Origin: Caulobacteraceae bacterium
GTDB lineage: Bacteria; Pseudomonadota; Alphaproteobacteria; Caulobacterales; Aquidulcibacteraceae
Direction: 5' to 3'
Assembly (NCBI GenBank): GCA_009773335.1
Contig: WRPF01000006.1
Location: forward strand, 29,804 to 93,803
Length of the DNA stretch: 64,000 bases
In this document: in pieces, positions 32,362-34,104 of the stretch
Numbering within the stretch: the first letter of the stretch is position 1
Layout: every line of letters starts with the position of its first letter
Position numbers and translations under genes: made by a program
The notes under the pieces: generated by a model
Told to the model about the DNA's origin: nothing
The model's database searches: none
What the model saw: only the letters and a program-made list of their open reading frames with translations

Positions 32362-32372
32362 CTGCGGAAACA

Positions 32373-32472
32373 GGACCGCGCACCTCCCGGTGCGCATCTC
32401 AGTATTCAAACCACGCGAGATTCCCCGGAGTCTGGCTTCGCGGGCGTATGCGCACCGGGAGGTGCGCGGTCC
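32373..32472. repeat. REP-like doublet: perfect 25-bp inverted repeat with nested hairpins
   Basis: The left arm GGACCGCGCACCTCCCGGTG(CGCAT) at 32373-32397 and the right arm at 32448-32472 are exact reverse complements over 25 bp, separated by 50 bp. Each arm also folds by itself (GCGCACC-TCCC-GGTGCGC, a 7-bp stem with a 4-nt loop), the layout of paired REP units in inverted orientation. It begins 12 bp after the 31861 ORF's stop. Confidence 0.8.
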
Positions 32473-32643
32473 TACTCGCCGACATCGCGCGAACAAAACC
32501 TGTCGACGCCACAACACGCTTCTGCTACGCACCCGTCGTCGTCGCGCTTCTGTGGCGGCGAAACGAGGCAATAAATGTCGACCAAAATGTATCAACGCAC
32601 CGCTTGCGGTCTGCCATCACGGCAGGTCGGCGCGCGCGCGCGT

Positions 32644-32705
32644 GGAGGAACGGTCGGCTAGACGCTTCGCATTTCGAAGGTCGGCCGGATTGGCCGTCAC
32701 CCTCC
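32644..32705 (+). ncRNA. Cloverleaf-like (tRNA-like) leader RNA upstream of rtcB
   Basis: Within 62 nt: a closing stem GGAGG (32644-32648)/CCTCC (32701-32705) encloses three hairpins in a row, namely GTC-GGCTA-GAC (32653-32663), CTTCG-CATTT-CGAAG (32665-32679) and CGGCC-GGATT-GGCCG (32682-32696). The topology is that of a small tRNA cloverleaf, but the T-loop TTC, U33 and CCA are missing, so it is not a functional tRNA. The CCTCC of the closing stem is also the 5' arm of the terminator that follows, so the two folds exclude each other. All pairings were read by eye. Confidence 0.45.
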
Positions 32706-32732
32706 CGGGCAAATGCTCGCGGAGGGTTTTTT
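32699..32732 (+). terminator. Intrinsic terminator inside the rtcB 5' leader
   Basis: ACCCTCC (32699-32705) pairs with GGAGGGT (32721-32727). Inside it, CGGGC pairs with GCTCG (one G-U) around an AAAT tetraloop, giving about 12 bp with one bulge, followed directly by TTTTTT. This is the strongest intrinsic terminator in the window, and it ends only 23 nt before the rtcB ATG, too close for a conventional promoter between them. That points to attenuation of rtcB. Confidence 0.8.
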
Positions 32733-32755
32733 AATTTGGGGTTCAGAGTGATGTT

Positions 32756-33976
32756 ATGAGTTACGAAGTGATCCGCGCGCACGGACGCGAGGTGAAGGCC
32801 TGGATTTCCGGCGTGCCGATCGAGCACGCAGCGATCGAGCAGCTGCGCAACACCGCAGCCCTCGACATCGTCTGGCCGCACGTGGCCGTGATGCCTGATG
32901 TGCATTTCGGTCGTGGCGCCACCGTGGGCTCCGTCATTCCGACCAAGGGCGCGATCATTCCCGCCGCCGTCGGCGTCGACATCGGCTGCGGGATGATGGC
33001 GCAGGAAACCTCGCTCACCGCCAAGGATTTGCCCGATACGCTTGCGCCGCTGCGCTCGGAACTCGAACGGAAAATTCCGGTCGGCAACGGGCCGGGCGGG
33101 GACTGGAAGAGCGAACGGCGTCCGGGCCGTGCGGAGCAACGTCTGCGCGCGGCCGGCAAGAGCGGCGCGCTCGCCGACCGTCTCGACCGCATCCTCGCGA
33201 AGCACCCGAAGATCCGCGGCGACAAGCTCGCGAACCAGATGGGCACGCTCGGCGGCGGCAACCACTTCGTCGAGATCTGTCTCGACGAACGCGATGTCGT
33301 GTGGGTGATGCTGCACTCAGGCTCACGCGGCACCGGCAACATGATGGGCAACTACTTCATCGAGCGGGCGCGTGAGTCCGTCCTGAAGAAGGGGGTCAGC
33401 CTGCCGGATCGCGATCTCGCCTACTTCGTGGAAGGCGAGGACGGCGACTTCGCCGATTACGTCGAAGCGGTGATGTGGGCGCAGGACTACGCGCGCGCCA
33501 ACCGCGAGACGATGATGGCGTCGGCGCTCGAGGCGATGCACGGCGTCCTGCCGGCGTTCAAGCTCGGCAAGACGGCGGTGAACTGTCACCACAACTACGT
33601 CGAGCCGGAGGAGCACTTCGGCGAGCGTGTGTGGGTGACGCGCAAGGGCGCGGTGCGGGCCCGCGTCGGCGATCTCGGGATCATTCCGGGGTCGATGGGC
33701 GCGAAGTCGTTCATCGTTCGGGGCCTCGGCAATGTGGATGCGCTCTGCTCGTGCTCGCACGGCGCGGGGCGGGCCATGTCGCGCAGCGAGGCCAAGCGCC
33801 GCTTCACCGTCGAGGATCACCTCGCGGCGACGCAAGGCGTGGAGTGCCGCAAGGACGTGGGCGTGCTCGACGAGACGCCGATGGCCTACAAGGACATCGA
33901 CGCCGTCATGGCCGCGCAGGCGGACCTTGTGTCCATCGTGCACACGCTGAAGCAGGTGGTGTGCGTGAAGGGGTGA
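32756..33976 (+). CDS. rtcB: RNA-splicing ligase RtcB
   Basis: A 406-aa RtcB: GTP- and Mn2+-dependent ligase joining 2',3'-cyclic-phosphate (or 3'-phosphate) and 5'-OH RNA ends, used in RNA repair. Visible sites: the metal Cys in GVDIGCGM, His in GGGNHFVE and MLHSGSRGTG, NCHHNYVEPE, and the guanylylated His in CSCSHGAGRAMSR. Length fits the shorter bacterial RtcB branch. No rtcA, rtcR, archease or prfH is in the window, so its usual regulator is absent; the structured leader with terminator may take that role. Nested palindromes follow the stop. Confidence 0.95.
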   Translation: MSYEVIRAHGREVKAWISGVPIEHAAIEQLRNTAALDIVWPHVAVMPDVHFGRGATVGSVIPTKGAIIPAAVGVDIGCGMMAQETSLTAKDLPDTLAPLRSELERKIPVGNGPGGDWKSERRPGRAEQRLRAAGKSGALADRLDRILAKHPKIRGDKLANQMGTLGGGNHFVEICLDERDVVWVMLHSGSRGTGNMMGNYFIERARESVLKKGVSLPDRDLAYFVEGEDGDFADYVEAVMWAQDYARANRETMMASALEAMHGVLPAFKLGKTAVNCHHNYVEPEEHFGERVWVTRKGAVRARVGDLGIIPGSMGAKSFIVRGLGNVDALCSCSHGAGRAMSRSEAKRRFTVEDHLAATQGVECRKDVGVLDETPMAYKDIDAVMAAQADLVSIVHTLKQVVCVKG

Positions 33977-33981
33977 GGCGT

Positions 33982-34104
33982 GTTCGGCACAGCCGACGCA
34001 ACGGTCCAGTGGACCGTTGCGAACGCCGAACGCCCTGAGCGCAAGCGAAGGGCCGGAAAGGCGGCGAACGATGACCCGGCTCGCCTCAACGGGTGAGCCG
34101 GGTC
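33982..34104. repeat. Nested palindromes downstream of rtcB
   Basis: GTTCGGC (33982-33988) and GCCGAAC (34025-34031) enclose a perfect hairpin GCAACGGTCC-AGT-GGACCGTTGC (33998-34020). A second hairpin GACCCGGCTC (34073-34082)/GAGCCGGGTC (34095-34104) follows. The first resembles a dispersed alphaproteobacterial repeat; either may end the rtcB transcript. Confidence 0.7.

Follow-up and report, generated by a model that had tools for sequence, protein, structure and literature searches.

A probable ribosome-dependent transcription attenuator in the leader of the RNA ligase gene rtcB in Caulobacterales

The trp and his leaders are transcription attenuators that depend on an upstream open reading frame (uORF), and T-boxes are leaders that bind tRNA directly. 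The rtcB leader described here resembles T-box leaders in that its RNA appears to choose between a terminator and an antiterminator, and differs from them in that it matches no Rfam family. It is also similar to the leader of vmlR in Bacillus subtilis, in which a short leader ORF is combined with an intrinsic terminator, an exclusive antiterminator and an upstream hairpin that may serve RNA polymerase pausing (PMC9226507). However, in contrast to the trp, his and vmlR attenuators, the rtcB leader would control an RNA-repair ligase and has no conserved regulatory codons; furthermore, the leader under study has no clear pairing between its segments 1 and 2, and about half of its relatives carry a fifth segment 3' of the terminator. 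General translation stress, the putative signal at rtcB as well, is known to be reported by the uORF toiL of Escherichia coli topAI (PMC12121999), although toiL acts via translation repression and Rho whereas the rtcB leader is predicted to switch an intrinsic terminator. In Sinorhizobium meliloti, likewise an alphaproteobacterium, translation of a uORF represses a downstream DUF1127 gene through an attenuator that has been proposed to monitor translation efficiency (PMC12218461); unlike at rtcB, attenuation there depends on C-rich codons and probably a Rho site, there is no GGAGG/CCTCC switch, and the target lies outside RNA repair. Finally, RtcR/sigma-54 control of rtcBA has the same output gene and is induced by damage to the translation apparatus (PMC7790460, PMC5175333), but the activator there is a protein, RtcR, to which tRNA fragments bind in enterobacteria (PMC7790460), and both RtcR and RtcA are absent from the genome studied here. 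No rtcB attenuator or uORF was described in the literature searched, an absence that is not proof because subscription papers were largely outside its coverage. Attenuators with uORFs are thus already known as a class, while the use of one for RNA repair and the fifth segment look new.

The DNA analysed, hereafter the window, is a stretch of 64,000 nucleotides from a Caulobacteraceae bacterium, whose 4.0 Mb genome in 285 contigs is probably a draft or metagenome assembly, like much of the comparison data. All features below lie on the forward strand. The window encodes the RNA ligase RtcB (406 aa, positions 32756-33976; Pfam PF01139, E=1.7e-122), and a genome-wide check showed that this is the only RtcB of the genome; in the control panel of that check, Caulobacter crescentus had no RtcB. 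RtcR (PF06956) was not found anywhere in the genome in a search that detected the E. coli positive control, and RtcA was not found in the genome either. The first-pass annotation had reported that no RtcR-type regulator lies within the window; this is correct and extends to the whole genome, and RtcR/sigma-54 control of rtcB was rejected on this ground. Just 5' of the leader, at 32372-32473, we observed a perfect inverted repeat with 26-nt arms around a 50-nt centre, which is interspersed in the genome (69 matches at dozens of places, some of them single arms) and looks like a MITE- or REP-like element. On the other side of rtcB, two tight inverted repeats at 33997-34021 (CGCAACGGTCCA/TGGACCGTTGCG) and 34073-34104 (GACCCGGCTCGCC/GGTGAGCCGGGTC) are possible 3' hairpins of the rtcB transcript.

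The leader contains a predicted intrinsic terminator hairpin at 32699-32727 (-21.0 kcal/mol for 32699-32740), in which CCTCC at 32701-32705 (segment 3) lies in the 5' arm and GGAGGG at 32721-32726 (segment 4) on the 3' side, followed by a TTTTTT U-tract at 32727-32732. The U-tract ends 23 nt 5' of the rtcB ATG (32756), exactly as first annotated. A simple terminator scan did not list the 32699-32732 site, probably owing to the scan's bulge rule. When the RNA preceding the terminator 3' arm was folded, GGAGG at 32644-32648 (segment 2) paired with CCTCC at 32701-32705 in the optimal structure (-29.5 kcal/mol), and slightly longer RNA gave an optimum of -30.3 kcal/mol. Antiterminator and terminator are thus mutually exclusive in these predictions, which upholds the previous proposal that one CCTCC serves two exclusive folds. 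Furthermore, the full leader RNA was more stable than its shuffles (z -2.78).

The first-pass annotation had further proposed that GGAGG/CCTCC closes a tRNA-like cloverleaf of three hairpins, and one explanation of the locus is accordingly a riboswitch that works independently of translation and whose cloverleaf recognises RtcB, another protein or a tRNA-like ligand. The arms of the switch are real and can, on paper, close three small hairpins. However, the cloverleaf fold (-23.4 kcal/mol) falls short of the optimum by 6.9 kcal/mol, and its hairpin 1 (32653-32663) has only 3 bp and contains the stop codon of a uORF described below. Its interior, a linker at 32662-32697 with predicted hairpins at 32665-32679 and 32682-32696, is not conserved in form: the hairpins vary by clade, the leader interior in Brevundimonas and Caulobacter is shorter and different, and a stable four-helix tRNA-like junction is not conserved among relatives. 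ARAGORN and Rfam detected no tRNA at the leader, their sole report being a tRNA-Met at 63.8 kb of the window, and at gathering thresholds no Rfam 15 family matched the window leader or those of 20 relatives, which led us to reject a T-box or other known structured leader. A translation-independent riboswitch would also leave a conserved uORF unexplained, and we regard it as very improbable. Of the earlier structural claims, then, the terminator and the GGAGG:CCTCC pairing were recovered by folding, and GGAGG, CCTCC and the terminator recur in related rtcB leaders, whereas the cloverleaf is neither the preferred fold nor conserved in its interior.

Codon-by-codon reading of the leader identified a uORF at 32575-32661, overlooked in the first reading, which lies in a frame used by neither of the long ORFs that span the leader. 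It comprises 28 codons from ATG 32575, or 24 from ATG 32587, and encodes MSTKMYQRTACGLPSRQVGARARGGTVG. An SD-like GAGG (32565-32568) lies 6 nt 5' of ATG 32575, and the TAG stop codon (32659-32661) is located 10 nt 3' of the GGAGG at 32644-32648 and 41 nt 5' of the terminator's CCCTCC. A tentative promoter is formed by TCGACG at 32503-32508 and GCTACG at 32524-32529, blocks that are partly common with a genus-mate (L010); a sigma-70 scan gave no consensus match at 32503-32529, and in Hyphomonas leaders the corresponding position is occupied by a clear TTGACG-N16-TCATAC. Our guess is that the transcript of the window leader starts upstream of the uORF.

We compared about 160 rtcB upstream regions, from which near-duplicates had mostly been removed. 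The rtcB loci were taken from named genomes (80), further genomes of the order (80) and the class (14); rtcB was present in 88/249 genomes of the order and 17/288 of the class. A common leader plan emerged, consisting of a uORF, a hairpin within the uORF, GGAGG, the stop codon, clade-specific hairpins and CCTCC-loop-GGAGG-U. This plan was shared by Hyphomonas, Henriciella, Hirschia, Ponticaulis, Maricaulis, Brevundimonas, Caulobacter and the window's own family, and was also present in the genomes L179 and L180, which come from a different family of the class. A strict GGAGG-CCTCC-GGAGG-NTTT pattern had a single occurrence in the 4.0 Mb genome, located at rtcB, and 12 occurrences in 61 genomes including this one, 5 of the matches being rtcB leaders when checked against rtcB coordinates. 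A search beyond the genus by leader sequence alone recovered just two rtcB leaders, that of the genus-mate and one more. Several divergent rtcB copies (L170, L171, L173, L175, L178, L184, L186, L189) have no attenuator; upstream of them lie tRNA genes and/or YrlA (Y RNA-like) arrays, some with several weak YrlA copies in a row; association of RNA-repair operons with Rsr and Y RNA is known. In Burkholderia (L056, L057, L059, L073, L079, L080, L097), rtcB follows directly 3' of the end of another gene (...LKELETLERIAERIDRISVFGGLDQVLNGLV...), and there is no attenuator.

As our first set of uORFs had partly been picked for having an ORF, we repeated the enrichment analysis blind to ORFs, on 93 leaders chosen for terminator and antiterminator alone, with expectations derived from dinucleotide shuffles of the flanks. 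An ATG ORF with a length of 20-36 codons and an end placed at -2 to +18 nt relative to the antiterminator arm was present in 74/93 leaders compared to 9.4 expected, and such an ORF together with an SD-like site in 63/93 compared to 2.0 expected. Related leaders are not independent, and we therefore also counted sequence clusters: the ORF was found in 44/54 clusters, and the cluster-level figures were 83% versus 11% expected for the ORF and 70% versus 2% for the ORF with an SD-like site. Several of the 19 leaders that had no qualifying ORF carry GTG starts or longer ORFs. Among close relatives the stop codon changed between TAG, TGA and TAA (L020/L103, L043/L037, L128/L131 and L159/L169 are examples), and the start codon between ATG and GTG. 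GGAGG was kept across clades even though it is read in different codon frames, as E-G, W-R or G-G, and was imperfect in a few leaders (L076, L163, L167).

The encoded peptides differ widely in sequence, as seen for the window's uORF and those of its genus-mate (MSFQTDHPKAKGLPVRQGGRACMEGNG), Caulobacter (MAHKAPTYLPTFIALDRQVEGTNARASEGITV), Hyphomonas (MTCRYLDQPRKDVAPERANGRFRMEVAG) and L036 (MKRLYENQIASFAQPVLGEPDRMEG), each of which ends at a stop codon. In 98 pairs of related uORFs, substitutions were spread evenly over the three codon positions (439/474/454) with no third-position excess, and synonymous changes, of which few were seen, were not in excess. Thus, the uORF peptide is not conserved. 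What appears to be conserved is the start, the length and the placement of the stop, an architecture suggestive of translation, and the uORF seems to serve to place a ribosome rather than to make a peptide. These data bear on an amino-acid- or tRNA-specific leader-peptide attenuator, in which uORF codons, such as those for Arg near GGAGG, would report one charged or cleaved tRNA. Codons for Arg (11.1%) and Cys (3.1%) abound in the uORFs, many of them just 5' of GGAGG, and E. coli Rtc counteracts colicin D, whose cleavage target is tRNA-Arg (PMC5175333). However, no codon run is common between clades, the Arg and Cys codons stem from a GCGYGYG stretch retained in varying frames, and selection at the peptide level is not seen. 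We consider codon-specific sensing unlikely, and as a general mechanism, sensing of a peptide sequence or a single codon was rejected on the basis of the 98 uORF pairs.

Next to the uORF architecture, RNA structure was analysed across leaders. The hairpin within the uORF, P0 (GUCUGCC/GGCAGGUC), is predicted at 32609-32628 with -8.6 kcal/mol in the window, and a P0 stem of at least 6 was found in 74/90 leaders, mostly 14-23 nt 5' of GGAGG, with a mean z of -1.6 compared to -0.2 for a control region (90 leaders). In 19 leaders of the Hyphomonas group, all six P0 pairs were changed on both sides, and the joint covariation score of P0, H1 and the terminator exceeded those of all 500 shuffles and all slid controls. 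Terminator pairs were 100% kept in the Hyphomonas clade. The GGAGG:CCTCC pairs of the antiterminator core are nearly invariant and thereby offer too little variation for a covariation test, and self-complementarity did not significantly exceed cross-species complementarity. The antiterminator pairing thus draws almost no support from covariation, and GGAGG could instead be kept as an SD-like site. One clear case of compensation in the antiterminator was observed, GGAAGG with CCTTCC in L128 and L131.

With a ribosome placed at the uORF stop in silico, the terminator formed in 90/90 leaders, and in nascent RNA preceding the terminator 3' arm the antiterminator formed in 65/90. The minimum-energy fold of the full-length RNA was the terminator state in 75/90 leaders, and antitermination must therefore be kinetic. 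Pairing of segments 1 and 2, the anti-antiterminator, was strong in Hyphomonas and some Brevundimonas but weak overall (mean z 0.5) and in the window (z 0.9). The 5' ends of Hyphomonas and Brevundimonas leaders carry, about 20-28 nt before the uORF start and close to where the transcript probably begins, a CCTCC stretch able to base-pair with either the uORF SD or the GGAGG of the antiterminator. The window leader has no 5'-terminal CCTCC able to sequester GGAGG.

Taken together, the anatomy, conservation and predicted folds read from sequence make ribosome-dependent transcription attenuation the probable function of the rtcB leader. Transcription would begin 5' of the uORF, and a ribosome reaching the uORF stop would cover GGAGG 32644-32648, leaving CCTCC free to form the terminator, so that transcription stops 23 nt before rtcB and the gene is off. 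A ribosome held further 5' in the uORF would instead allow GGAGG to pair with CCTCC as soon as the latter is made, the terminator would not form, and rtcB would be on. P0 probably paces RNA polymerase and the ribosome. As the uORF peptide is not conserved, the leader most likely monitors whether translation of the ORF can be completed, and the signal would be translation stress, such as tRNA or rRNA damage or ribosome inhibitors, rather than one amino acid. In E. coli, rtcBA responds to damage of the translation apparatus by tRNases and by the ribosome-targeting tetracycline (PMC5175333), and uORFs of comparable type sense ribosome-targeting drugs (PMC12121999; PMC12218461). A uORF that is not translated at all may leave rtcB on or off depending on the clade, given the 5'-terminal CCTCC in Hyphomonas and some Brevundimonas. 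The initial suggestion of an attenuator that switches on an RNA-repair ligase is thus well supported, its terminator and antiterminator being found at rtcB in several families and orders, while sensing of RNA state or of a tRNA-like ligand through a cloverleaf is not; the conserved sensing element would be the uORF with its stop at the antiterminator.

RtcB has been linked to 16S rRNA cut by MazF. A more specific version of ribosome-dependent attenuation is that GGAGG senses whether the 16S 3' end of the ribosome is intact: at termination, a ribosome that still has its anti-SD (CCUCC) could hold GGAGG by pairing, ribosomes deprived of the 16S 3' end by MazF-type or colicin-E3-type cleavage could not, GGAGG would then pair with the leader CCUCC, and the induced ligase could reseal such 16S breaks. 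The retention of GGAGG in all codon frames favours this idea, as does the distance from the end of GGAGG to the uORF stop, which is 8-12 nt in 57/90 leaders; however, spacings of 1-7, 13 or 16 nt in other clades disfavour it, and we hold 16S 3'-end sensing to be doubtful.

It has also been suggested that the leader is a separate small RNA with its own terminator. On this account the terminator would be constitutive, a short leader RNA or its peptide would act in trans, and rtcB would be expressed by basal read-through. Under any reading the locus would produce a terminated leader of about 190-200 nt, and alphaproteobacterial leader peptides can act in trans, as reported for peTrpL (PMC7298713). 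However, this account would still have to explain the antiterminator arm and why its position relative to the stop codon is fixed, and within the source genome the strict pattern occurs at rtcB and nowhere else. Terminated leaders are short RNAs, and a small RNA may therefore exist as a by-product of attenuation, but as the main explanation it is highly unlikely.

A further element was detected downstream of the terminator. In 48/90 leaders (z above 2), the stretch separating the terminator from rtcB contains 10-15 nt with complementarity to the loop and 5' arm of the terminator; these frequently lie 20-40 nt 5' of the rtcB ATG. For 39 cluster representatives, the complementarity of this fifth segment to its own leader (23.9) was higher than in all 5000 shuffled pairings (mean 18.5, sd 0.66). 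Examples are CGCGCGGAGGGC with GCCCTCCGCGCG in Hyphomonas and GCCAGGAGGGG with CCCCTCCTGGC in Caulobacter. The segment was seen in L019-L030, L052, L061-L070 and others, and co-varies with the terminator 5' arm across clades; the window leader does not contain it. The fifth segment would form in read-through RNA only, where it might hold the leader in its open state or make the region of the rtcB start accessible.

The inducer of RtcB and the damage that it repairs in bacteria have been studied almost solely in enterobacteria, through RtcR. If the attenuator proposed here is real, a cis-acting switch that reads translation across an alphaproteobacterial order would represent an independent solution to the control of rtcB, with faltering translation as the signal. 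It would also constitute a conserved leader element that is absent from Rfam and useful for the annotation of many genomes.
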